This document shows, in pieces, positions 578 to 19,173 of a DNA stretch of 36,923 nt (the first letter of the stretch is position 1; each line of letters begins with the position of its first letter). The DNA is from an uncultured Methylococcaceae bacterium (GTDB lineage: Bacteria; Pseudomonadota; Gammaproteobacteria; Methylococcales; Methylomonadaceae), in assembly GCA_903945375.1 (NCBI GenBank), contig CAJAVP010000111.1, forward strand, positions 1-36,923, in the 5' to 3' direction. Under the pieces are notes generated by a model. It ran no database searches. It worked only from the letters and a program-made list of their open reading frames with translations, and was not told the origin of the DNA. The position numbers and the translations under genes were made by a program.

Positions 578-727
578 TTATTTAAAATAGACTGCTCTAT
601 CATTGTTGGCTGTGGCTATATCAGCCCATTGACGTGCCAACCCTAAACTTATAGCTGTTCCTTCGGCAATACTCACTAAACCGCCCGCTTTGCTAACAAA
701 TTGTGCTATTTTTTGATAATACAGCAT
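578..727 (-). CDS. possible small ORF or frameshifted tail, 49 aa
   Basis: An ATG frame on the minus strand encodes a 49-residue peptide that contains AGGLVSIAEGTAISLGLARQ and ends in YFK. It overlaps the last 35 bases of the preceding mosaic ORF in another frame. Its composition (small residues, a weakly hydrophobic middle) looks more protein-like than random. It could be the real continuation of the LamG-type protein after a frameshift, or a separate small gene. I do not recognise a family and no convincing ribosome binding site is visible. Confidence 0.25.
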   Translation of the reverse strand: MLYYQKIAQFVSKAGGLVSIAEGTAISLGLARQWADIATANNDRAVYFK

Positions 728-2477
728 AACCACCTTTCGGTATTGAGAAAGTTACATTTAATTTTTCACTACTTCCCGCATCACGAGGGTCGAAAGTAGA
801 AAAATTATCGGTAATACTATTGTAGGTAGTCGTCCAGTGATCCCATATGTCACTAATAACGCTAGTTTCAGGACGATTGCCATTAAGTACAATAAAATCA
901 GTCCAATTACCTTGTTTGTCGTAAATATCTAGCATGGCATCAGCAGAACCTTGATTGTATAAGATAGGAATATCACTACTACTTGTCATGCCAAATATTT
1001 CAAATGTTGGGTGAACACACCAATTAGCATTATTTATACATTGGTCGGTATTACTAGAAACTCCATTTTTAATAGTTTTTGCAACCTGCTGATAAAGAAC
1101 TGTAATTTCTGAATCTGTTAGGGCGCGGTTGTAAATACGGGCTTCGTCAATTAATCCGTTAAAGTATCTATTCAACCCATTGACAGCACCAATTAATAGC
1201 GGTTTGGTATCTTGAAACATATTTGCAGATGAATATTCAACTTCTTGTATTTGAACACCATTCAAATTCACGTCGCCTCGCTGCACCAGTGCGCGATCAT
1301 ATTCAGGCCAGTTAGTCACTTTCCATTTACTTTTTGGCCGGCTTTCTTCGTTAGGAATGGCGTTTGTTCGGACTGGCTGGTCATGATAATTCTCCGGTAC
1401 GGTTGCTTTTGGGCGATAGTTTATAGCATTTGAGAGTTTATGCACCAACGCCAATTCATGTTCAACATCTTTTATTTTCATAACTGAAACCCGTTGTGAA
1501 AATTCAGCTAATGCGGTTTTAGCCTTATGTGCATAATCTAATGCACGATTATTTCCATCATCCTCCATAAAAGAGGCATGTAATTTGTCAAGTAACCGAG
1601 CGGTATCCATCGCCTCTCTTAAGTAATTTTTGATATTTTCTTTGTGTTGAGATACTTTTAAAATCGATTGCGCTTTTTTGTCTTGTTCTTTATTCAACTC
1701 TTCCAAACGTTGCATTAACAGACCTTCTTCCGGTGCCCTGGCAATATTAACACCAGCCGAATCAATTTTATGACTAACAGTTGTTAATTGATCTGCTAAG
1801 TCGGCTAAATACTTACCTTGCGTGTTAATGGCATTTAGGGCGGCTGCTTCAATTTTATTATGCAGAGAATCCGACACGTCATGTATTAATAGGGTGTTTT
1901 TTTCAGGCATTAATAACTCAGAAAACACTTCATTGATTTCTTTTTTGACATAGTTGAATACATCTTTATTCAAGGAGTGTATAAGACGATTTTCTAAAGC
2001 TATTATATGAGCTGATAGGAATTCTGCTGTTGTTTTTTTTATTTTAAATTCATTTTCAGTATGTAGCTGATGAAGACAGGATTGAACAAATTGAGGTGCG
2101 ATAAAAAAAGGAAAGCTACCTGAAAGACCCTCTCTAATTTGATTTTGGATGATTTCTTTTTCTTTGGAAAGTCCAGATAGATTTTGTATCTCTTGTTCAC
2201 GGGAAGCTGCCCATGCACCACCATGAGCATTCAAACTATTTGTCAGCTGGTCAATTTTTTTGGACGATTCAGATAAAATTATTTTGGCAGATTCATAAGC
2301 TTTCTGTTCTTGCTCAATGAGTTGTTCTTTTTCATACAATACTGATTCCAGTGTTTCTATTTTTGATCTAATATCTTCACTGGCTTCATTTTTGTTTAGC
2401 TGCCGAATAAACACAGTAATATCCCCGATCAATTTTTCAATCAGATCAAGGCCAATAAGTTTTTTTACCGAGTCCAT
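693..2477 (-). CDS. mosaic ORF: internal DndD fragment + IS transposase scrap + LamG-type C-terminal piece (likely pseudogene)
   Basis: The reading frame is open for 594 residues but joins three unrelated parts. Residues 1-365 are coiled coil and match the middle of DndD, the SMC-like ATPase of DNA phosphorothioation: GLDLIEKL near the start, then GGAWAASREQEI and a SGSFPFFIAPQF segment. The Walker A domain that should precede this and the Walker B/signature domain that should follow are both absent. Residues about 366-403 read as the N-terminus of an IS903-group transposase (KWKVTNWPEYDRALVQRGDV). From residue 404 the frame is a LamG-like end (RYFNGLIDEARIYNRALT) and an unknown Cys-containing tail. 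The ATG at 2477 lacks a ribosome binding site. It may be transcribed, but it cannot work as DndD. The DndD assignment rests on recalled family motifs. Confidence 0.6.
   Translation of the reverse strand: MDSVKKLIGLDLIEKLIGDITVFIRQLNKNEASEDIRSKIETLESVLYEKEQLIEQEQKAYESAKIILSESSKKIDQLTNSLNAHGGAWAASREQEIQNLSGLSKEKEIIQNQIREGLSGSFPFFIAPQFVQSCLHQLHTENEFKIKKTTAEFLSAHIIALENRLIHSLNKDVFNYVKKEINEVFSELLMPEKNTLLIHDVSDSLHNKIEAAALNAINTQGKYLADLADQLTTVSHKIDSAGVNIARAPEEGLLMQRLEELNKEQDKKAQSILKVSQHKENIKNYLREAMDTARLLDKLHASFMEDDGNNRALDYAHKAKTALAEFSQRVSVMKIKDVEHELALVHKLSNAINYRPKATVPENYHDQPVRTNAIPNEESRPKSKWKVTNWPEYDRALVQRGDVNLNGVQIQEVEYSSANMFQDTKPLLIGAVNGLNRYFNGLIDEARIYNRALTDSEITVLYQQVAKTIKNGVSSNTDQCINNANWCVHPTFEIFGMTSSSDIPILYNQGSADAMLDIYDKQGNWTDFIVLNGNRPETSVISDIWDHWTTTYNSITDNFSTFDPRDAGSSEKLNVTFSIPKGGYAVLSKNSTIC
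1269..1384 (-). mobile_element. 5' scrap of an IS5/IS903-group transposase inside the mosaic ORF
   Basis: Codons here spell KWKVTNWPEYDRALVQRGDV, the characteristic N-terminus of IS903-type transposases, which normally continue into a TLW motif. Here the next residues switch at once to LamG-type sequence. A nearby ATG at 1384 opens the +1 frame, so the original transposase start probably lay there and a base has been lost or gained in the A-run near 1340. The fragment has the same strand as the C-terminal remnant at 1-270 and precedes it in reading order. Confidence 0.65.
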
Positions 2478-2644
2478 TGGTATATAGGTAAAGACGTATG
2501 CTTTGATAACAATAGCCCTGTGATTTGATGTTTTGCAATAACTTAAACGCGATGATCTTTCCTTGCTACGCGACCATAAAATAACGATGACTTATCTAAA
2601 GGTGTTTGACTAGATTAGTTGTTACCTGTAAATTATTCAATATG

Positions 2645-2659
2645 TTTATTTAAAATAAA
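2645..2659. repeat. AT-rich perfect inverted repeat upstream of the HNH gene
   Basis: Seven-base arms TTTATTT and AAATAAA flank a single A, ending 14 bases before the HNH start codon. The position suits an operator or core promoter, but such AT palindromes also occur by chance. The rest of 2478-2673 holds no gene that I can support. Confidence 0.25.
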
Positions 2660-2673
2660 ATGCTATTGGGCTT

Positions 2674-3663
2674 ATGACAACAAAAAATCAGGATATTCAA
2701 TACTACATTCACTGCTTAAAAAATCTGCGCCGCGATAGGAAAAAAGGAGGTGCTCCCCATAAGCCAATTTTGTTACTTAGTGTTTTTCAGTTGATTGAAA
2801 GTGGGTACATTAAAAATAACAAAATTTATTTAACACCTGAATTAGTTAGCGTATTCAAAAGCAATTGGTCGCATTTAGTAGTTTCAGATTACAGTCACAT
2901 GATTTTTTCTTTGCCTTACTATCACATGAAAAGTGAACCGTTTTGGCGGCTAAAGCCAAATATCGGTTGTGAAAAATGGGTAGAGGCTAAATCTGCAATG
3001 AAAACTTTTGCAAATTTAAAAGAAGCGGTTAATTATGCAGAAATTGACATCGATTTATTTTTTCTTTTGCAAAACTTTGTAATATGCAATGAATTAAAGT
3101 TATTTTTGTTGGATCATTATTTTCCTGAAACAAAACAAAATTATCCACACGTTGTACGCTTTGATGATTTAGATGCAATTTCTAAGCAAATTATTCAAGA
3201 ATCTTCAGCGGATTATAAAAACAGAATTGAAGAACTAGAACAAACGTTAGATAAAGATGAATATGAACAAGAAATATTTGTAAGAAGTCATTTATTTAAA
3301 CGAGAGATTATAAAAATTTATAATAGCACCTGCTGTATTTCTGGTTTACGAATTGATGCCATTGATAATATTTCTATGATAGATGCGTGCCATATTGTGC
3401 CTTTTTCTGAAAGCCGTAATGATAGTATTACTAACGGCATTGCATTGTGTCCTAATTTACATCGAGCTTTTGATCGTGGTCTTATTGTGATTAATGATGA
3501 TTATCGAATCGTTATAAATCCCATTTTTACTGAGCCTTACCCAAGTGCATATAGCATTACCCAATTTTCAGGAACACAAATTCTATTGCCGACAAACCCA
3601 AAATATTACCCGGAACGGGTAAATTTGGCGCAGCATAGACAACAGTTTAACTTAGATTTCTAA
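2674..3663 (+). CDS. HNH endonuclease with sulfur-binding-like N-terminal domain (putative phosphorothioate-dependent type IV restriction enzyme)
   Basis: At 329 residues this matches the two-domain plan of ScoMcrA-like enzymes, which bind phosphorothioated DNA and cut nearby. The N-terminal part (about 10-110) has LRRDRKKGGAPHKPILLL, then LTPELVSVFKSNW and a PYYHMKSEPFWRL block, the layout of the sulfur-binding (SBD) domain. The C-terminal HNH domain has CCISGLRID (about 219), the His motif ACHIVPF (about 238) and NGIALCPNLHRAFDRG (about 255-268), so catalytic and metal-binding residues appear complete. The gene converges on, and overlaps by 17 bases, a SAM methyltransferase on the other strand. 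Low GC suggests horizontal acquisition. The HNH call is secure. Sulfur specificity is family-level inference, supported by the PT-linked neighbours. Confidence 0.85.
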   Translation: MTTKNQDIQYYIHCLKNLRRDRKKGGAPHKPILLLSVFQLIESGYIKNNKIYLTPELVSVFKSNWSHLVVSDYSHMIFSLPYYHMKSEPFWRLKPNIGCEKWVEAKSAMKTFANLKEAVNYAEIDIDLFFLLQNFVICNELKLFLLDHYFPETKQNYPHVVRFDDLDAISKQIIQESSADYKNRIEELEQTLDKDEYEQEIFVRSHLFKREIIKIYNSTCCISGLRIDAIDNISMIDACHIVPFSESRNDSITNGIALCPNLHRAFDRGLIVINDDYRIVINPIFTEPYPSAYSITQFSGTQILLPTNPKYYPERVNLAQHRQQFNLDF

Positions 3664-4240
3664 TTACTACGTTATGCCATATTAGGTTGCGCTTTTGCTC
3701 TATTTCAAATTCATGATGCAAAATAGACAATCCATTTACGCTAAAAAAATCTTGTAATTCTTTGTAGAGTATTAAATCGTATAACTTTCCATTCTCTCGT
3801 TGGTTGGTATTATTTGTACTACGAAATGAAATGATCAAGCTTCCATTGGGTTCTAGGAGAGTTATAAACCGTTGGTAAGCGATCATTCTGTCTGCTTGGT
3901 TTAAGTGCATTAAAACAGCCGAGCAAAGTATGTTTGCAAAGGTTTTTTCATTTAGTTCAAGAAGTTCAGGTAATGAATCCTCTATAAATTTCAAATCTTG
4001 ATGCAGTATTCTCGCTTGTTTTAGCATACCTTTAGACGCATCAACACCTAAAACTAAGTAGCCTTGTTGAGCTAACCATTCGGTATCGCGCCCAATTCCA
4101 CAACCAATATCAGCCGTTTCTGCATTAGGTATAAAAAACTCTGAAATCAATTCGTAAATGCGCTCAGGAATTAACGACTTATGTAACTGCGTAATAGATT
4201 TGGCTTCTTGGTTATATGTGATAATTGTTTGCTTATCCAC
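3647..4240 (-). CDS. class I SAM-dependent methyltransferase
   Basis: This 197-residue protein has the Rossmann methyltransferase fold. Motif I is ADIGCGIGRD (residues 43-52), the acidic end of strand 2 is LGVDASKGML, and the later motif is LEPNGSLIISFR. It looks like a small-molecule or nucleic-acid methyltransferase of the Methyltransf_11/25 type with no separate target-recognition domain. It is convergent with the HNH gene and shares its 3' end. Pairing with a restriction-type nuclease suggests it may modify or protect, but its substrate cannot be read from the sequence. The start follows an ACG-rich stretch with no strong ribosome binding site. Confidence 0.8.
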   Translation of the reverse strand: MDKQTIITYNQEAKSITQLHKSLIPERIYELISEFFIPNAETADIGCGIGRDTEWLAQQGYLVLGVDASKGMLKQARILHQDLKFIEDSLPELLELNEKTFANILCSAVLMHLNQADRMIAYQRFITLLEPNGSLIISFRSTNNTNQRENGKLYDLILYKELQDFFSVNGLSILHHEFEIEQKRNLIWHNVVIRNLS

Positions 4241-4333
4241 GTTTAATCCTTTTTTAAAAGTGCATCTTAACGGTATTTTACACTGGCCATAGATACCGGA
4301 AAAACAATTACTGCGTTACATGCGGCAACTAAA

Positions 4334-5581
4334 TTGGCACATCATCAAAAGCATTTAGTGTTAATAGTAGCCGTTCCCTACCAGAACTTGGCGGATCAAT
4401 GGTGTGATGTCATGTCTCTATTTTCGATGGATGCGATTAAGTGCTATATGTCTCGCAGCAGTTGGCATCTTGATTTACGCACAGCCATTGCAGATTTTCA
4501 ATTACAAATCAATAAGCCATTTTTATCAATTGTTGTGGTAAATAGAACCTTAACAAGCCAAGCCTTTCAGGATGAGATAGGCAAAATAAAGTCAGAAAAT
4601 ATATTATTTATTGGGGATGAATGCCATCATCATGCAAATAAAAACATAATAAAAAAGTTACCATTGGCGCGTTATAGAATAGGGTTATCCGCAACACCAT
4701 GGTCAAAAAATGAAGAAGAAAAAGAAAAGCTACTTAAGTCGTATTATGGAAATATTGTAGCCACCTATTCGATTGCGGAAGCGTTGCATGATGGTGTGCT
4801 TACACCCTATAACTATTTTATCCATCCTTTTTATCTTACGGAAGAGGAAACAGAAGCTTACATAGAAATTTCCTCTGAAATTGGAAAACTTATAGCAATA
4901 CGTGAACAAGGCGGAAAAATTAATGAAGATCAACTCACTGCCTTATTTATGAGAAGAGCCAGATTAATCGGGTCGGCAGAAAATAAATTTTTAAAATTAG
5001 AAAACCTGTTGGATAAATTACATATTGAAAAGCATACATTATTTTATTGTGGGGATGGTTCTGTCATTGAAGAATCCAACGGCAGTTCTAACAATGATGA
5101 AACCAATAGCAGTAAAAGAGATATAGAACGTGTAGCCAGTATTCTGCACAAAAAAGGCTGGAAATCATCTCGATTTACTGCCAGTGAATCCTTGAATGAA
5201 AGAAGATCAATTATAGATAACTTCAAAAATGGCTTTATAGATGCGATGGTATCTATTAGGGTTTTAGATGAAGGCATTGATATTCCCGTGTGTAAACAAG
5301 CCTTTTTGTTGGCTAGTTCAAGAAATGAACGGCAATTTATTCAACGTCGAGGCAGAATTCTTAGAAAATCATTGGGTAAAGAATTTTCAGTTATTTATGA
5401 TTTCATTGCTCTTCCATGCCTAGGCTTCGTTGATGAAAGTTTAAAAGGCCTAGTAAATAGCGAACTCGATAGAGTGTATGAGTTTGTGCATGTGGCAAGT
5501 AACAAAAATGAGGTGGCTCAAGAAGCTAAACAATTGGCTGAGGGTTATGGGCTTGACTGGTTATCAAGAGTGTATAAATAA
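4334..5581 (+). CDS. DEAD/DEAH-box helicase of the DNA phosphorothioation restriction-enzyme type, N-terminally truncated
   Basis: Superfamily 2 helicase motifs are clear: Walker B GDECHHHA, motif III RIGLSATPW, motif V-like RVLDEGIDIP and motif VI QRRGRILR. The overall sequence resembles the family annotated as DNA phosphorothioation system restriction enzyme (TIGR04095, from memory). The only usual start is TTG at 4334, which falls after Walker A. The same frame is open back to a stop at 4268-4270 and reads AIDTGKTITALHAATK, a Walker A motif (AxxTGKT) with no start codon before it. The family normally has an N-terminal segment before this motif, so the gene is probably beheaded at a junction near 4270. 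It is the first gene of a tight four-gene set ending at 8308. Confidence 0.75.
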   Translation: MAHHQKHLVLIVAVPYQNLADQWCDVMSLFSMDAIKCYMSRSSWHLDLRTAIADFQLQINKPFLSIVVVNRTLTSQAFQDEIGKIKSENILFIGDECHHHANKNIIKKLPLARYRIGLSATPWSKNEEEKEKLLKSYYGNIVATYSIAEALHDGVLTPYNYFIHPFYLTEEETEAYIEISSEIGKLIAIREQGGKINEDQLTALFMRRARLIGSAENKFLKLENLLDKLHIEKHTLFYCGDGSVIEESNGSSNNDETNSSKRDIERVASILHKKGWKSSRFTASESLNERRSIIDNFKNGFIDAMVSIRVLDEGIDIPVCKQAFLLASSRNERQFIQRRGRILRKSLGKEFSVIYDFIALPCLGFVDESLKGLVNSELDRVYEFVHVASNKNEVAQEAKQLAEGYGLDWLSRVYK

Positions 5582-5605
5582 ATCAAATCTTTCATGGAGC
5601 AACTA

Positions 5606-5821
5606 ATGGATTTCAAAGAAATTATGGAAACACTAAACGACATTAAGAAACATCCTGAAATAATTGACGAGCTTGATTCTGAAATGGATAAGGCTTTAAA
5701 AGATATTATTAAAATAGAACGACGACATCTCTATGGAGGACTCGATAGCACTAGTGTGGCAACGCGACGTAAAACCATACAAACTTATTTAGAAGATACA
5801 CTTAAAAATAGGGAAAGTTAA
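5606..5821 (+). CDS. small charged helical protein in PT-associated operon
   Basis: A 71-residue, helix-rich protein with alternating acidic and basic residues (MDFKEIMETLNDIKK, then ELDSEMDKALKDI). I do not recognise a named family. An ATG at 5594 in the same frame is possible, but GGAG at 5596-5599 is ideally placed for ATG 5606. It lies between the helicase and the SMC-like ATPase and ends one base before the ATPase start, so all are likely cotranslated. It may be an accessory or DNA-binding subunit of the same complex. That role is inferred from position alone. Confidence 0.7.
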   Translation: MDFKEIMETLNDIKKHPEIIDELDSEMDKALKDIIKIERRHLYGGLDSTSVATRRKTIQTYLEDTLKNRES

Positions 5822-5822
5822 T

Positions 5823-7844
5823 ATGCTGTTAGAAAAATTAAAATTAGTAAATTTTAGGCAATTTTACAACGAGACGGAAATAGAATTTTCAACTGATCCA
5901 CAAAAAAACATTACACTAATTCATGGTGAAAATGGTGTGGGAAAAACGACAATTTTGAATTCAATTCTGTGGTGTCTTTATGAAAAGCTAACGCATGATT
6001 TTGAGCAGCAAAAGGAGTTGATTTGTATACAAGCAATCAAAGATGGTGTGAAAAGTTGCAGGGTAGAATTATCTTTTCAGTACGAAGAGAAACATTATTT
6101 AGCCCAACGATCTCTTCATAATTCGAATCAATCGCTATTGAAGTTGTTCGAGATCAATAATAGTAATTATAAAGATGTACCTAATCCAACCGCATTTGTT
6201 AACAACATTTTACCCAGCGACATGGCAGAATATTTCTTTTTTCATGGTGAAGGTGTTTCTAATATTAATGCAACTAAGTCTGGTGAAAAATTTAGACGGG
6301 CAATACGGGATATACTTGGTTTTCGCTTAGCTGAAACTGCTATAAAGGATTTAAAAGAAATTAATGCTGTTTGGACAAAAGCACTTAATGAATTAACTAA
6401 TCTGAATTATGAACAAAATGAACTGGTAAAGAAAAAATCAATATATGAAGGTAAAAAAATAGGCTTGCTTGAAAAGTTACGCACTTTTAAAGAAGAAAAA
6501 GAAGATCATGAGACAAATCTTAATGAAGTTCTCGAAAAATTAAGGCAATGCTCTTCTGTAGATGCAAGAAAATTACAGAAAGAAATCGACGATTTAGTAG
6601 CAAAAAATTCGAAATTAGATACATCCATTAATAGAGCCAGGATGGATAGGCAGAACTTAATTAAAAAGTACGGATGGATCATATTTGGGCAAAAACTGGC
6701 TAATGAGGCATTGGATTTTATAGACGAGCAAAGCCTAAAAGCTAAATTACCTGCGCCTTATGATGCGAGTTTAGTCAACGATTTGATTGAACAGCAGAAA
6801 TGTATCTGTGGCAGAGAATTGAAAAGAGGAACTAGGGAATTTGAAAACGTAACTAATCTAATAGATAAAGCAGACAATGCTGTGATTCGATCAAAACTGT
6901 CAAAAGCCCGATCAGCGGGGTCAAATATTAAAAGTCGATTTTCTGATTTTTTAGTTGAATTGCAAAAAGTCGAAGAAAATTTACAGGAACTGGACGATGA
7001 TAAAAGAGATGTTGTTATAGCTTTAGAAACCAAACAATCCGAATTAAAAGATATTCCAGTTGAAGAGGTTCAGAAATTAGAATCACGTAAGAAGTTATGC
7101 AACGAAGCTCGTTCTAAAGCCGAGCAAAATATAGGTGCGTATAAAAGAAGCATAGAGCAGTGCGATAAAGATTTAATAGACATTGATTTAAAATTAAAAC
7201 GTTGTGGTGCTCAAGATACTCGAATCAACAAACTCACTCAATATCAGGACTATGCCTCTAACCTAATCAAACTATGCGAAAAAAATCTTAATCAATATGA
7301 AAAAGACTCCAAGTTAATCATTGCTCAAAATGTTAATAAAACTCTACAAGATTTTTCAAGAAAAGATTTTTACGTTAAAGTTGATGAAGATTTCGGCTTT
7401 CATTTGATTCGTGAAAATGGGCAAAAGGTAGCAAAAAGCAAAGGTGAAAATCTATTGCTTAATTTGTCATTTGTATCTGCATTGATTGAATTTGCTCAGA
7501 TGCGTAGTAGTGCAAGTGGTGATTTTCTTGTATCAGGCACAACCGCGCCATTTGTTATAGATGCTCCTTTTGGTGAATTGGATAATACCTATAAAAAAGC
7601 TTCTGCCGAATTTTTACCAAAAAGAAGTCGGCAATTGATTTTTCTTCTTTCTTCATCGCATTGGGAAGGGACGGTTGATGAAGCAATACGAGATAAAATA
7701 GGTTCAGAATATATTTTAATTTCTTCTAAAAACTCAGTCCAAGGAGAAAAGCCAAGCGATAAATTAACTATTAATGGAATAGAGTTTATACAGTCACTTT
7801 ATAGTCAAGAAAAAGAAGCAACATTTATTAAGAGGGTAAAATAA
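5823..7844 (+). CDS. DndD-like SMC/Rad50-type AAA ATPase
   Basis: The 673-residue protein has the split ABC-ATPase layout of SMC, Rad50 and DndD. Walker A is GENGVGKT (residues 35-42); a long coiled coil follows (about 180-500), interrupted near residue 327 by a Cys pair in KCICGREL that recalls a zinc hook. The signature-like motif is SKGENLLLNLSF (about 538), and Walker B plus D-loop is FVIDAPFGELD (about 577-587). In the family such proteins act as ATP-driven DNA clamps or sensors; DndD itself supports sulfur incorporation. This copy sits with PT-restriction-type genes, so it may belong to the effector side. Its stop overlaps the next start by one base. All ATPase motifs look intact. Confidence 0.85.
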   Translation: MLLEKLKLVNFRQFYNETEIEFSTDPQKNITLIHGENGVGKTTILNSILWCLYEKLTHDFEQQKELICIQAIKDGVKSCRVELSFQYEEKHYLAQRSLHNSNQSLLKLFEINNSNYKDVPNPTAFVNNILPSDMAEYFFFHGEGVSNINATKSGEKFRRAIRDILGFRLAETAIKDLKEINAVWTKALNELTNLNYEQNELVKKKSIYEGKKIGLLEKLRTFKEEKEDHETNLNEVLEKLRQCSSVDARKLQKEIDDLVAKNSKLDTSINRARMDRQNLIKKYGWIIFGQKLANEALDFIDEQSLKAKLPAPYDASLVNDLIEQQKCICGRELKRGTREFENVTNLIDKADNAVIRSKLSKARSAGSNIKSRFSDFLVELQKVEENLQELDDDKRDVVIALETKQSELKDIPVEEVQKLESRKKLCNEARSKAEQNIGAYKRSIEQCDKDLIDIDLKLKRCGAQDTRINKLTQYQDYASNLIKLCEKNLNQYEKDSKLIIAQNVNKTLQDFSRKDFYVKVDEDFGFHLIRENGQKVAKSKGENLLLNLSFVSALIEFAQMRSSASGDFLVSGTTAPFVIDAPFGELDNTYKKASAEFLPKRSRQLIFLLSSSHWEGTVDEAIRDKIGSEYILISSKNSVQGEKPSDKLTINGIEFIQSLYSQEKEATFIKRVK

Positions 7845-8308
7845 TGGCTGGTATTTGGCGAGATAGTAAATTCACAGATGTTGCAAAAAGGCTTGTCGAT
7901 GATCAGACAACATATTGTGGACAAAAAATATTTTCTACCTATCTGGAATTGATGGTATTTTCTGCAATGGTTGGGTTTTATGAAAACAAAAAAAAGGCTG
8001 TTGACTATAAAGATGCGTTCGAGGTGCGTCAATCAGTTTTTGAAAATCAAAATATGGATGCTTATGTTTATCTTTGTGCTTTACAAGATCAAAAATCAGG
8101 CGAAATCTTTAGGGAAAATAATGATGCTGAGTGCTGGAAAATATTTGAATCTTATGCCAATGCGGGTTTAGAAATTATTAGCAATTGGTTGCTTGATTCC
8201 CCGGGTGATATTGATGGTGTGGAAACAATTTTAAATGAGATGAAAACAATTGCCGCATCAATGAAGTCATTTGATGACTCACCTAATCCTCATGAAATTG
8301 AATTTTAA
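7844..8308 (+). CDS. Dnd system-associated protein 4-like
   Basis: A 154-residue protein with an N-terminal block that resembles small proteins encoded beside dnd genes (dnd_assoc_4, TIGR04062, recalled): IFSTYLELMVFSAMVGF, then a repeated RQSVFEN-type segment. No catalytic motif is visible. It is probably helical and cytoplasmic. The start codon shares its A with the ATPase stop, and GAGGG just upstream serves as ribosome binding site, so translation is coupled. It ends two bases before the convergent end of the large methyltransferase. Function unknown. Confidence 0.65.
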   Translation: MAGIWRDSKFTDVAKRLVDDQTTYCGQKIFSTYLELMVFSAMVGFYENKKKAVDYKDAFEVRQSVFENQNMDAYVYLCALQDQKSGEIFRENNDAECWKIFESYANAGLEIISNWLLDSPGDIDGVETILNEMKTIAASMKSFDDSPNPHEIEF

Positions 8309-8310
8309 AA

Positions 8311-10842
8311 TTAATTTGTTTTCTGGCATATTTTTCTCGGCATTACCTGTCCACTCCCCATTATCACCATCTCAATATAGTCCCCTTTAAAATCCTGCCC
8401 ATAGCTAACATGCACGGGGCGGTCTTCGCCATAAAAATATAGTCTGTCAAATGGCGTGTTGGTGGCTATCCAGTCAGCCACTTCACGCATATTTTCATCT
8501 TCAACGATAAAATCAACGGCTGCACCTAAACGTGGACAAATCAGATTTTTTTTGGTGTTGAGTTCATGTGCGGCATGTTGATCTAATTTAGGTGCCACCC
8601 TTTTTTTAATGTGTTTACCTAAGTCGTGTGAGCAAAAGCCGTAAGTCAGTTGAATCATGCCAAAGTAATCAATGATTGGGTCAAGGATGTTAATCGCTAG
8701 TTCATACAATGCTGTATAGCTTTCAGGCTGTTTAGGGCAATTGGGTAAGCCCGTCGTTTTTTGCGTTTCGCCGCATTCAATAAGCTGCCGATAGGTCAAA
8801 TAGCGACCACAAGCATTATCTAATTCAGGAATGCTGCGGCTACGGACTAATTCAAAACCATCAATTTCCCAACGAGCATTGGCGAGTATCTTCCGAAACG
8901 CCTCAGGTTTAGGGCCATATCCTGTTAAGTCAAACAAGGATAAGGCTTGTAGGTGTTCATCGAAGCCCAATTGTTCGGCATAATAAGGCAATTCTTCATT
9001 GATAAAACGTGATTTTAAATATAAATTCGTGGGTTCATATTCTTCACCATATTGATACAGGTCAAAGATTTGTTCACGCAGATTAATTTTTACGCGTTCC
9101 AGTAAGCGAGGTATTGGTTGATTTTGAAAATCATCGTAACGCATAAGACTGAGTTTGCCAGATTGACTATGGATTTTGATTAAATCAGCCTGCTCAATAT
9201 CACCATAAAGGATAGTTGCACAGCCGATGTAAATCCGTAATAGTGCTGGCAAGCGTTTGACCATGCTGGGATGCAGATGTAAGGCATTATCTGCGTTAAG
9301 ATAACCTAAGCCTTGCTCGGTGGCCTGCCGACTGGCATCAGCAATCAGCTCAACGTTGCTGATTTGGAATAAAACCGATTGAGCTGTTGCGACAGCGTTT
9401 TGATAATCGCCAAAAAAAGCTTTGATATCTTTTTGTAAACCTATTTCTAGGTGCTTATAGGCTTTTCGTTTAGAAAATGCCTGTAGGGCAAAGTAAGTCA
9501 GTAAATCGTCAATTCGGTTTTGTCTGGCAGTTTCTAAAAGTGCGGTATCAAACTGGTCTAGCATAAAGCGTAGGGCTTTTTTGATAGTGCCAAAGTTTTG
9601 CGTCAGCTCAATTAGGTTATTGATTTCAGTTTTATCGGGTAAGCGCCCTAGTTCTAAAGTTTGTTGCCAAAGCGGATCAACTAAGTGTTTAAAATTTAGA
9701 TATTTTTTCTCACTGCTAGATAATTTTGGTAATGACGGAATCAATGGCCGTTGTGATAAACGCAGAATATTCCGGTGACTACGTTGTCTGTTTAGTAAGA
9801 AGCGTTGTTCGGCATCAGGGTCTTTAAAGATGAAAAAAATACCAGGGGCAACTGGAATGGCATCCGTCTTTAATGTCTCACTTAAAAACGCTTTTAATTC
9901 TGTTTGTGTGAAATACTTTTGGAAAGTGTTGCGTTGAGTGATGACACCATCATTGAACACTTGGCCTTTTAAAGCATTTTGATTGAACAGCATTGCTGAT
10001 ACGACCAAAACTTGTAGGCATAAATCGTAAGCACCCCATAAGGCATCAATGCGTTCCTGATAGTTTTCAATCACATTGATAACAAAGCCCAGATTAACAA
10101 TGTCTGCTACTTGCTTGGGCTGATCAGGTGCGTAATGAGGATCCCAGCCAGACACGCGAATGGTATTGCCCGTCAGATTGCGAATATCATCACCTCTACC
10201 ACAACCATAATCGAACACAGAAAGTGTGCCGTCTAAAAAACCATGCCTTGCCAAACACTGCATCGGGGCGGATAAATTGCTGCGGGAAAGCGCGGTTAGA
10301 TGCCTTGCAATTGTAGCGTCTTCGCTTGCTTTTATGACAAGACTATCATCGAGTTCAAAATTACCGATAGGTACAAATTGATGATCAACCAATTGAAAGC
10401 CCTTTTCAATAATCAGGCTTTCCCATGTTTGCTTAAAGCCAATAGAAATTGGGTTTTCAAATAGTCCAAGCTGTTCAGCCGTCGCTGTCAGTTCGAGAAA
10501 CTGTGGGATGTGTGGGTCATCTTTACCGAGTAATAATTCTTTGCGGTGCAGAATGGGTGGGTTAAATGATGATTGATAAGTTCGCCTTTCTACACGTTTA
10601 GAGCTTAGATCAACACGATAACTTATTGCCAATGCCGGAAATGGATCGCTAAAAAAGCCGGGATACCACAACAAGGATAGCGCGTGTCCATTGATATCAT
10701 ATTTCACGACATTGTAATCAACATCAGCTTGCCGTCCTGCTAAAGCCTCAGCTTCGGCAATCTGTTGCTTTACTTCATCGTTTTGTATGGACGTTAGGCT
10801 GATGTGCCAATAAACAGTGTTGAGGACTTTTTTTCCTAGCAT
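8311..10842 (-). CDS. DNA phosphorothioation-associated putative methyltransferase, large form with M15-like C-terminal region
   Basis: The 843-residue product contains a methyltransferase domain from about 175. ARHLTALSRSNLS leads into motif I VFDYGCGRGDD (209-219) and GWDPHYAPD, the hallmark of the PT-associated methyltransferase family (TIGR04096, recalled). Residues 1-170 form an extra N-terminal domain without a recognised motif. Residues about 675-843 look different: YLTYRQL, then TYGFCSHDLG, then RLGAAVDFIV and FDRLYFYGEDRPVHVSYG. This order recalls zinc peptidases of the M15/VanY type or their inactive relatives. The gene is convergent with the four-gene helicase/ATPase set and has its own promoter side at 10,843-11,221. 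It looks complete. The substrate is unknown. Confidence 0.8.
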   Translation of the reverse strand: MLGKKVLNTVYWHISLTSIQNDEVKQQIAEAEALAGRQADVDYNVVKYDINGHALSLLWYPGFFSDPFPALAISYRVDLSSKRVERRTYQSSFNPPILHRKELLLGKDDPHIPQFLELTATAEQLGLFENPISIGFKQTWESLIIEKGFQLVDHQFVPIGNFELDDSLVIKASEDATIARHLTALSRSNLSAPMQCLARHGFLDGTLSVFDYGCGRGDDIRNLTGNTIRVSGWDPHYAPDQPKQVADIVNLGFVINVIENYQERIDALWGAYDLCLQVLVVSAMLFNQNALKGQVFNDGVITQRNTFQKYFTQTELKAFLSETLKTDAIPVAPGIFFIFKDPDAEQRFLLNRQRSHRNILRLSQRPLIPSLPKLSSSEKKYLNFKHLVDPLWQQTLELGRLPDKTEINNLIELTQNFGTIKKALRFMLDQFDTALLETARQNRIDDLLTYFALQAFSKRKAYKHLEIGLQKDIKAFFGDYQNAVATAQSVLFQISNVELIADASRQATEQGLGYLNADNALHLHPSMVKRLPALLRIYIGCATILYGDIEQADLIKIHSQSGKLSLMRYDDFQNQPIPRLLERVKINLREQIFDLYQYGEEYEPTNLYLKSRFINEELPYYAEQLGFDEHLQALSLFDLTGYGPKPEAFRKILANARWEIDGFELVRSRSIPELDNACGRYLTYRQLIECGETQKTTGLPNCPKQPESYTALYELAINILDPIIDYFGMIQLTYGFCSHDLGKHIKKRVAPKLDQHAAHELNTKKNLICPRLGAAVDFIVEDENMREVADWIATNTPFDRLYFYGEDRPVHVSYGQDFKGDYIEMVIMGSGQVMPRKICQKTN

Positions 10843-11221
10843 ATGGTGATTAAACGTATTCAGATTTTGCTGGTAGAGAAATTAGTGAACAAAAAACCAT
10901 TGTAAATCAGTGTCTAATTCTTAACATTTTCGTTGTAGCTATTAATTCTGTTTAGTGCCTAAAATTGATAATTCAATAGTTTATTGGACAAGCACTAAGC
11001 ACTTGCTTATGAACCATGTTGGCATAGGGGGCAACAATATCTCACCTGGATTCAACGATTGATAGCAAGAACAGCGGCGTCTGGGGCAAAATAGCATTCA
11101 TGCCATAAATACGGCAAAGCTTGGTGCTACACTGTGTCAAAAATCGCTTTCGATAAAGTGCACTATTTTCCCATACTTTCAAGGGGCTTATTTTTTGTCT
11201 GTCAGAGAGTTTTTAGAATTG
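10843..11221. other. intergenic boundary between PT island and core, no gene found
   Basis: This 379-base stretch separates the island from core genes. I find no tRNA, no direct repeat that would mark an attachment site, and no convincing terminator. A short minus-strand frame near 11,040-11,100 gives about 19 residues only. It must contain the promoter of the large methyltransferase at its left end, but no clear -35/-10 pair stands out. Confidence 0.5.
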
Positions 11222-11734
11222 TTAGCACGTTTCTTGATGATGTAATGCCTCAAGCACGCTCAAATAGTCTCTGCACTGGGGGCGGTATAAATAAAATCCT
11301 AAAGCCGCCATTCCCATAAACATCCATAAGCTGTTAATGGGATCGCCCAACATAAATAGAACGAAGCCAAAAATACCCACGGTTTCCATCATCGACATGG
11401 AAACTAAGATTGTTTGTAAATAGCGACGTTTGGCCGTTATAACGATTTGCGTCGACTCTTTTTCGCCCTCTAATGGCATGGTTTGACTCAATCGTAATTG
11501 CATATGCCTGAGTAAATTCGTCAACGGAAACAACGCTATCCCAATGCCATAAAACCACGAGCGAATCGATACTCGCTCTGCTTCAGCTAAAGCCTGCCGC
11601 CACGGCTCTGCGTAGTTTATGCCGAAAACGATTAAACCTAACAGCGCACTCAACATTAAACCAAGTGCAATCCAAGGTAATCGCAAACCGTCTGAATAGT
11701 GCGCGTTTTTTAAGCTAGGGGATAAATCAGACAT
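11222..11734 (-). CDS. inner-membrane protein of unknown function
   Basis: 170 residues with about four hydrophobic segments: WIALGLMLSALLGLIVFGI near the N-terminus, a segment around IGIALFPLTNLL, one around VGIFGFVLFML, and LWMFMGMAALGFYLY near the end. No known motif is visible. The start overlaps the stop of ppa by eight bases, so the two are probably translated together. This kind of membrane protein next to a pyrophosphatase could be incidental; I assign no function. Confidence 0.75.
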   Translation of the reverse strand: MSDLSPSLKNAHYSDGLRLPWIALGLMLSALLGLIVFGINYAEPWRQALAEAERVSIRSWFYGIGIALFPLTNLLRHMQLRLSQTMPLEGEKESTQIVITAKRRYLQTILVSMSMMETVGIFGFVLFMLGDPINSLWMFMGMAALGFYLYRPQCRDYLSVLEALHHQETC

Positions 11735-18264: not shown

Positions 18265-19173
18265 TTAGAAATAGCCTTCGCGCTTTTTTTGTTCCATCGA
18301 ACCGGACTGATCATGATCGATCAAACGCCCTTGACGTTCAGAGGTTGTTGTCAGCAGCATTTCTTGGATAATTTCCGGCAGCGTTGTCGCCGTTGATTCC
18401 ACTGCACCCGTCAACGGATAACATCCCAAGGTTCTAAAACGCACCATTTTCATTTCTACTTTGTCATTAGGCCCAATGGGCATACGCGCATCATCAACCA
18501 TGATCAACATGCCATCTTTGTTGACCACTGGACGCTCTTTGGCAAAATATAAAGGCACAATCGGGATATTTTCCAAATGAATGTATTGCCAAATATCCAG
18601 CTCAGTCCAATTGGACAGAGGAAACACGCGGATACTTTCACCCTTATCAATTTTTCCGTTGTATATATTCCATAATTCAGGGCGCTGATTTTTAGGATCC
18701 CAGCGATGATTTTTATCGCGGAATGAATAGACGCGTTCTTTGGCGCGAGATTTTTCTTCATCACGACGTGCGCCACCAAATGCCGCATCGAACTGATATT
18801 TATCTAAGGCTTGTTTAAGACCATCGGTTTTCATGACATCCGTGTGTTTTTTGCTGCCATGTGTAAATGGCCCAATACCTTGATCAACGCCATCTTGATT
18901 AATATGTACCAACAATTCCCAACCTAAGTCTTTAACTATTTGATCTCGAAATGCGATCATTTCTTTGAATTTCCACGTGGTATCTACGTGCATCAATGGG
19001 AACGGGGGAATGCCAGGGTAAAACGCTTTTTTCGTAAGATGCAACATTACAGCAGAGTCTTTACCGACTGAATACAACATCACAGGACGTTCAAATTCGG
19101 CGGCAACTTCACGAATAATATGAATACTCTCAGCTTCCAGCTGTTTAAGATGGGTTAATTTATAGTCAGTCAT
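18265..19173 (-). CDS. cysD: sulfate adenylyltransferase subunit 2 (CysD)
   Basis: The catalytic ATP-pyrophosphatase subunit of ATP sulfurylase. The PP-loop reads [12 protein letters not shown] (residues 34-45), with further conserved blocks [15 protein letters not shown] and [11 protein letters not shown], and the end motif KKREGYF. At 302 residues it is full length. It is the first gene of a cysDN unit, with 45 bases before cysN. The ribosome binding site is weak. The upstream region contains a small palindrome at 19197-19209 that may be regulatory. Confidence 0.95.

Follow-up and report, generated by a model that had tools for sequence, protein, structure and literature searches.

The window considered here, that is, the whole stretch of 36,923 nucleotides analysed, is the entire contig C111 (CAJAVP010000111.1) of an uncultured Methylococcaceae bacterium whose genome assembly comprises 3.59 Mb over 133 contigs. 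In its left part, between remnants of genes for DNA phosphorothioate (PT) modification (dnd) and remnants of the associated pbe genes, lies an intact gene for a protein that combines a sulfur-binding domain (SBD) with an HNH nuclease domain (hereinafter SBD-HNH). The segment 1452-8308 is a former Dnd-Pbe island, with dndB-C-D-E on one strand and DUF262-pbeA-B-C-D in the divergent orientation, the center of which (from dndD codon ~180 to pbeA codon ~284) has been replaced by the SBD-HNH gene and a small methyltransferase gene. The anatomy is well supported, with an intact gene for a predicted PT cutter where the PT-writing genes stood; on balance, we favor the explanation that the PT-cutting enzyme displaced modification genes with which it is incompatible, that is, that the cutter caused the loss of the writer. 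The features of the locus are as follows:

265-519: YefM-type antitoxin gene.
693-2477: chimeric open reading frame (ORF) that joins part of dndD to a 185-bp repeat and a LamG-like end.
1268-1453, minus strand: dispersed repeat of 185 bp that continues the frame of the dndD piece.
1452-2477, minus strand: dndD fragment (positions 174-516 of 662 of the profile built in this work), the 5' part of the chimeric ORF.
2674-3663, plus strand: SBD-HNH, 329 amino acids (aa), predicted PT-dependent Type IV restriction endonuclease (PF13391, NF045808, PDB 8h0l).
3647-4240, minus strand: small class I methyltransferase.
4277-5581, plus strand: C-terminal remnant of PbeA, helicase part (positions 285-713 of 734 of the profile built in this work).
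5594-5821, plus strand: PbeB-like small ORF, 75 aa, in the same place as an ORF in the relative L004 (55% identity).
5823-7844, plus strand: PbeC, CxC-type ABC ATPase, full length (PDLC02722, 713 bits).
7844-8308, plus strand: PbeD / DndE-like protein (TIGR04062).
8311-10842, minus strand: TIGR04096 methyltransferase, 843 aa (595 bits).

Residues 16-155 of the SBD-HNH protein match the solved sulfur-binding domain SBDHga1 (PDB 8h0l, E 3.5e-16), and the HNH domain matches PF13391 (1.6e-13); the score against the NF045808 profile is 88.9 bits (2.9e-25), below the curated cut-off of 180. The predicted pocket consists of H29, K30 and P81, which are taken as equivalents of H116, R117 (or Lys) and P165 of ScoMcrA on the basis of the HK and P motifs and the alignment to SBDHga1. 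In ScoMcrA, these residues are reported to serve in sulfur binding, with Lys in place of R117 in most homologs, and the H116I change to abolish 94% of binding (PMC6224610). The place of ScoMcrA Y164 is taken by Leu in the window protein. Among 24 aligned SBD-HNHs, P81 and the HNH residues H240, N254 and H263 are retained in all; the H29 place is occupied by His in 14, Asn in 7 and Tyr in 2 sequences, and the K30 place by Lys in 21 and Gln in 2 (one gap in each case). The description of this protein as an intact sulfur-binding-like HNH nuclease, made in the preliminary description of the locus, stands, with the predicted pocket residues and the HNH residues in place.

The original layout of the island can be judged from its relatives. 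A scan of public genomes for PbeC, with close relatives only within reach, identifies two loci, L004 from a metagenome-assembled genome of Methylobacter and L005 from NOR5-3. In L004, dndE-D-C-B on one strand and DUF262-pbeA-B-C-D on the other are arranged back to back, and pbeA is split by a frameshift; L005 contains the same dnd and pbe genes, together with dndA and a TIGR04096 gene, in a different arrangement. On either side of the gap, the order and strands of the window genes match L004: the dndD piece aligns to L004 residues 180-520 and PbeA aligns from residue 285. Compared with L004, the missing block extends from dndD codon ~180 through dndC, dndB and the DUF262 gene to PbeA codon ~284, and the gap is filled by 1.8 kb with the SBD-HNH and small methyltransferase genes. 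The DUF262 gene located between dndB and pbeA in L004 (5867-7627) encodes both GmrSD domains (DUF262 and the HNH-type C-terminal domain), a two-domain layout that has been described for DndI and SspE.

The Pbe side is a remnant as well. The helicase restriction gene recognized in the preliminary description (4334-5581) does match TIGR04095, with 368 bits against a cut-off of 600, but represents only the C-terminal part of PbeA, from position ~285. The frame opens at ~4277 in the Walker A region, which is altered (LAIDTGKT in the window vs LATGAGKT in L004), and the first ATG, GTG or TTG start is the TTG at 4334; given that the helicase domain of L004 PbeA begins at residue 263, the first part of the helicase is missing as well. 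In the published description, PbeA is a fusion of an HKD endonuclease with an SF2 helicase (PMC10853773); Pfam gives no HKD match in two longer PbeA relatives, and the HKD label is that of PMC10853773 alone. The 75-aa PbeB-like ORF has no NCBIfam match. The product of 5823-7844, previously regarded as a DndD-like ATPase, matches the PADLOC PbeC profile PDLC02722 over positions 1-642 of 643 and the DndD profile TIGR03185 only weakly (117 bits, cut-off 245.85), so that a DndD identity is rejected; this PbeC contains the CICG motif and is 62% identical to its L004 counterpart. The 7844-8308 product (71.5 bits with TIGR04062, 8e-20) narrowly misses the cut-off of 74.25 and is 64% identical to PbeD of L004; both PbeC and PbeD are complete. 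Thus, the resemblance of four products to dnd-associated families is real, and only the TIGR04096 match exceeds its cut-off.

The frames of PbeC, PbeD and the PbeA remnant remain open, with pN/pS (nonsynonymous relative to synonymous change) against L004 of 0.28-0.48 at synonymous sites near saturation; dN/dS is uninformative, because in most pairs the synonymous sites are saturated or nearly so. The open frames, together with the reported occurrence of CxC/Pbe systems independently of the DndD-centered system (PMC10853773), could be taken to indicate that PbeBCD, the shortened PbeA, the HNH protein and the methyltransferases comprise one autonomous defense system without self-modification. 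This appears very improbable: PbeA lacks residues 1-284 and has an altered Walker A motif; G032 is the only other of the 237 genomes of the family with a match across pbeA-D, at the DNA level and among the matches listed; and the TIGR04096 gene is found in Ssp-type loci of relatives. Because PbeA is truncated, the island is not classed as a PbeABCD system, and the loss of the PbeA N-terminus suggests that the Pbe remnant is probably non-functional. The suggestion that the island had decayed to its effector side is therefore close to the mark for the Dnd-Pbe part, except that the effector side is broken, too. The alternative put forward with it, a defense set that dispenses with self-modification, fails for an intact PbeABCD but is nearly right for the SBD-HNH protein alone: a Type IV enzyme would need no self-modification, and self-modification of the Dnd type would endanger it. 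Neither would defense without self-modification be new in itself, given that Pbe-type (CxC) systems without the DndD-centered system are already in print (PMC10853773).

On the Dnd side, a genome scan with the dndD profile finds the fragment at 1449-2474, in agreement with its earlier recognition as a fragment; it covers profile positions 173-512 and lacks the N-terminal ATP-binding part as well as the C-terminus. The DndD search of the genome yields two places in the window and a weak match in a 1151-aa frame, and no full DndD in the genome beyond this fragment. DndC gives no matches in the genome, either by profile or with the protein of a relative, which does find DndC in 38 of the 237 family genomes. 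There are also no genome matches for DndB, with a profile for which there is no control on a genome known to hold dndB, or for DndE, with a profile that was silent in the first controls and positive in 5 of 6 later ones, which were chosen for their known dnd loci. Hence the absence of dndB, dndC and dndE frames, first noted for the window, extends to the whole genome, and complete dndBCDE elsewhere in the assembly is rejected.

At the left edge, the dndD piece stops at 1452 and continues in frame into the 185-bp repeat and then a LamG-like end (PF13385). Two more copies of the repeat (98-99% identity) are present on contig C79 of the same genome. Its translation resembles the start of an insertion sequence transposase; Pfam gives no match for this 49-aa stretch. 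We read the chimeric ORF as a scar rather than a new gene. Since the repeat is dispersed, an assembly error at the left edge is possible; the SBD-HNH gene would be untouched by it.

The replacement is not confined to the window. In the family set of 237 genomes, which includes the genome analyzed here, SBD-HNH matches are found in 15, of which 5 cover the HNH half only and were dropped. Nine of the remaining 10 SBD-HNH genes lie in dnd loci in which dndC, dndD or both are broken or missing. Apart from the window, with dndD 174-516 only, these are G192 (dndE and dndD full, dndC 356-489 only), G196 (dndC 349-432), G146 (dndC scraps), G040 (dndC 18-56 and 98-164), G072 (dndC 20-272), G103 (dndC 21-287), G215 (dndC 17-322 and dndD 453-657) and G229 (dndC with a frameshift close to the end, and dndD missing from the interval up to the dndE-HerA gene). 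In G192 and G196, the HNH gene is cut by the contig end and the junction is shared (86.5% over 252 bases). In the tenth genome, G234, the 12 kb examined contain no dnd gene, but the HNH gene is only 372 bases from a contig edge. The junctions fall into about six classes (the window; G192 and G196; G146; G040, G072 and G103; G215; G229), with G040, G072 and G103 possibly reflecting one event followed by erosion. A single ancestral HNH insertion behind the window, G146 and G192/G196 loci was considered and rejected, because these three groups share no alignable sequence farther upstream than a few bases ahead of the start codon, although fast erosion could also account for this. In a tree of SBD-HNHs, used solely for this question, the dnd-linked proteins fall into more than one clade, with modest support for some nodes.

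The replacement is best delineated by two comparisons within genera. Between G229 and G222, homology breaks off within the last few codons of dndC and returns where the dndE-HerA gene has its start codon; G222 has dndD in this interval and G229 only the HNH gene, the stop of which overlaps the dndE-HerA start codon by four bases, as does the dndD stop in G222. In G215, compared with G210, homology breaks off in dndC and returns inside dndD; the HNH gene stands in place of the intervening dndC and dndD sequence, and dndD contains another gap internally. In both G229 and G215, the foreign stretch is approximately the HNH gene alone, without a transposase frame.

Among the 38 dndC-bearing family genomes, dndC and dndD are both intact in none of the 8 with the HNH gene vs 24 of the 30 without it. 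Intact here means that dndC and dndD are long open frames across nearly the whole of the relevant profile, as judged with profiles built from the loci of this analysis; dndB and dndE were not required, and G233, with a C-terminal piece of dndC in another frame, was counted as intact. The six non-intact genomes lacking the HNH gene are G014, G031, G095, G133, G224 and G236. As a guide only, because the genomes are related, Fisher's test gives p = 6e-5 for all 38 genomes and 2.5e-6 without the doubtful HNH-free G014, G031, G095 and G133; when shared junctions are collapsed, the values are 1.2e-4 with the doubtful genomes dropped and 1.4e-3 with these counted as broken.

Outside the family, 8 of 368 other genomes of the class match; four matches with one domain only were dropped, and the four full-length SBD-HNHs have no dnd genes within 6.5-8.6 kb on either side. 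Among plasmids, 141 records match SBD-HNH; all 20 with at least 80% cover were examined, and from H13 on these proteins are only 18-27% identical to the window SBD-HNH. Three of the 20 genes adjoin dnd genes, two in Picosynechococcus and one in Chlorohelix. On the two Picosynechococcus plasmids, dndC starts at profile position ~194; in L154, it is followed by dndD and dndE, and in L155, only the start of dndD is visible. The Picosynechococcus enzymes have Gln for the pocket Lys, a change that is reported to weaken ScoMcrA (PMC6224610), and by this analogy fit a less active enzyme as well as incompatibility. Among 50,697 phage records, 6 match SBD-HNH and none covers 80%. In total, 12 of the 34 loci lie beside dnd or pbe genes (9 in the family and 3 on plasmids), and in all 12 a dnd or pbe gene is truncated or absent.

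The same genome contains part of a second PT system. The TIGR04096 protein exceeds its cut-off of 150 by a wide margin, and in 17 of the 18 loci examined (the exception is L009), its gene is found next to a DndA/SspA-like desulfurase; the small methyltransferase gene is close to the TIGR04096 gene in several relatives. G003 (L135) encodes, in this order, the desulfurase, the TIGR04096 protein, a 107-aa product, the small methyltransferase, DUF4007 (SspB), SspC, a 270-aa product, SspD and an SBD-DUF4007 protein. The TIGR04096 gene of NOR5-3, however, adjoins dnd genes. Given the desulfurase association and the presence of both genes in the Ssp locus of G003, the two window methyltransferases look like Ssp-locus genes rather than parts of Pbe. 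Ssp genes also occur in the window genome itself, on contig C69 (L168:7786-13761), where a DUF4007 (SspB) gene lies between those of an SspA-like desulfurase and an SspC ATPase (PADLOC scores 469 bits for SspA, 290 for SspB and 1290 for SspC, the latter vs 453 for BrxC). SspD was not found by PF01507 in the genome or by tblastn with two SspD proteins of relatives on the stretches of this genome examined, with C69 ending 341 bases after sspC; the matches to PF01507 (PAPS reductase family) are the window gene 18406-19086, two further genes and, in addition, one weak match. BREX type 4 is reported to share homologs of SspB, SspC and SspD (PMC12839542), and a relation of the C69 module to that system is possible, with the PADLOC scores favoring Ssp. 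Thus, the genome may write PTs of the Ssp type with a second kind of writer. In two Ssp-type loci, proteins with an SBD-like N-terminus (NF045808) are encoded at L135:10989-12320 and L136:1049-3400, one with DUF4007 and one with an SspF-like sequence; these are possible PT readers inside Ssp systems. Two points go beyond the preliminary description: the HNH gene stands where the modification genes have been lost, in the window and likewise in relatives, and the genome has a partial Ssp module.

Taken together, the gene content, the truncations and the similar replacements at differing junctions in relatives are best explained by the following scenario. The SBD-HNH protein would be a working Type IV restriction enzyme, the SBD of which docks on PTs in incoming Dnd-type DNA, with the HNH domain cutting near the bound PT; it would be viable in this host because the host no longer writes Dnd-type PTs. 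Once such an enzyme is expressed, selection would leave mainly those cells that have lost the dnd writer genes, and the most direct loss would occur where the HNH gene itself takes over the place of dndC or dndD. A precedent is reported for ScoMcrA (SBD-SRA-HNH) in Dnd+ S. lividans: after its introduction, the 93-kb dnd island was gone from all 10 exconjugants examined (PMC3009677). The functions of cutting and writing sulfur-DNA may exclude each other. Ssp activity need not conflict with this scenario: SBD-Spr is reported to bind GpsGCC, GpsATC and GpsAAC and not CpsCA (PMC7470945), so that SBD-HNH and Ssp could coexist, provided that the window enzyme shares this sequence specificity. A more far-reaching and rather doubtful proposition is that SBD-HNH genes are locus-overwriting antagonists, with a naked PT-cutting gene repeatedly replacing dndC or dndD in different dnd lineages and converting a writer into an anti-writer locus in one step, once with retention of the coupled start of the operon. 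In the bolder form of this proposition, cuts by SBD-HNH in PT-marked chromosomes, including the dnd locus, would promote its own gain by recombination, a modification-guided homing.

Several observations weigh against displacement by an incompatible enzyme. The window SBD-HNH scores below the NF045808 cut-off, which is not exceeded in any of the 237 family genomes. With SspA-B-C present, the cell is not proven to be PT-free. No dnd gene is found in the stretch examined around 22 of the 34 SBD-HNH loci, G234 among these (6.5-10 kb on both sides in 20 of these loci, 372 bases on one side of G234, and 4.5 kb and 0.3 kb for L180), so that location in dnd is no rule of the SBD-HNH family. The HNH gene is broken up in L155 and L176, in L155 by an IS1 transposase gene. 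Of the 24 genomes in which dndC and dndD are both intact, 9 show partial NF045808 matches (SBD half in G129, G145, G163 and G233; the HNH half in G027, G049, G115, G164 and G222), so that it is the full SBD-HNH form that those genomes lack. Chlorohelix plasmid L161 (5165-16113) carries SBD-HNH beside intact dndBCDE, the sole clear coexistence; there, pbeA is in pieces, PbeC is reduced to its first 64 positions and a second DndB-like gene is present, and the SBD-HNH has Tyr for the pocket His, a substitution that may or may not abolish binding. Finally, in G224, DpnI occupies the place of dndD, so that replacement is not SBD-specific: a truncated dndC is followed by a 112-aa ORF, DpnI (PF06044, 275 bits, above the cut-off), an ORF and the end of a HerA-like gene (L107 6924-10701), and dndD was not found in this locus. 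The 112-aa ORF has no Pfam match and resembles a methylase piece.

The G224 locus also bears on the main rival explanation, turnover at a defense hotspot, where any restriction cassette may replace worn-out dnd genes and SBD-HNH is merely frequent, with no incompatibility needed. We consider this possible but less likely. It agrees with the DpnI of G224, with the broken dndC of G236 that has a transposase-like ORF (HTH_Tnp_4) nearby, with the unrelated methyltransferase that adjoins the HNH gene in the window, and with Chlorohelix, where the HNH gene is beside a truncated pbeC and dnd is intact. It is less compatible with the distribution among the 38 dndC-bearing genomes, where broken loci hold SBD-HNH in 8 and DpnI in 1, and with the losses in the family, which always involve dndC and/or dndD, needed for modification according to published work. 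Chlorohelix could also be taken to show that SBD-HNH normally serves these Dnd systems as their restriction partner and that the dnd genes merely decayed around it, as might the wHTH+SAD+HNH proteins reported by Rakesh et al. in the Dnd locus of 698 taxa, with proposed restriction roles (PMC10853773). We regard such a partnership as improbable, given that the 24 family genomes in which dndC and dndD are both intact yield no full-length match to this SBD-HNH, that neither NCBIfam nor Pfam shows an SRA domain in the window protein, and that in G229 and G215 the HNH gene is in the place of dndD, not beside it. Displacement by an incompatible cutter remains the reading that we prefer.

Beyond 10842, the window contains genes including those for inorganic pyrophosphatase and thymidylate synthase; a short stretch at 11050-11199, left of the gene 11222-11734, is repeated at many sites in related genomes.

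If displacement is correct, incompatibility of writer and reader is visible in natural genomes and directly testable. Lutz et al. predicted that SBD-HNH enzymes avoid dnd genes and reported closely neighboring dnd clusters in less than 3.6% of cases, leaving about 65 neighboring cases open, with mutated, non-functional dnd clusters as one offered reason (PMC7461809). The window and its relatives suggest an answer for one clade of such neighbors, namely dnd loci whose writer genes were replaced by the HNH gene. They also carry a warning that PT modification should not be called from dnd-like genes alone. A search of the open-licence literature found no report of SBD-HNH genes replacing dndC or dndD, which is weak evidence of absence.

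Compared with known systems, the window protein resembles EcoWI, SprMcrA and Ksp11411I (NF045808) in the N-terminal sulfur-binding domain, the C-terminal HNH domain and the HK and P of the pocket. Unlike the published SBD-HNH enzymes as surveyed in PMC7461809, 9 of the 10 family members are located in broken dnd loci. With the DndBCDE-PbeABCD (CxC) island of L004, the window shares the gene order and strands of what is left of dndD and pbeA-B-C-D; in contrast to L004 and L005, the window lacks dndB, dndC, dndE and DUF262, has truncated dndD and pbeA, and carries the HNH and methyltransferase genes in the gap. Of SspABCD, the genome holds the SspA, SspB and SspC genes, on another contig and at its end, with SspD not found. 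A further parallel is the reported laboratory case of ScoMcrA and the S. lividans dnd island (PMC3009677), an incompatibility between dnd genes and an SBD enzyme that cuts PT-DNA, as proposed for the window; ScoMcrA, however, has an SRA domain and the whole 93-kb island was excised, whereas the window has the HNH gene where dnd genes stood.

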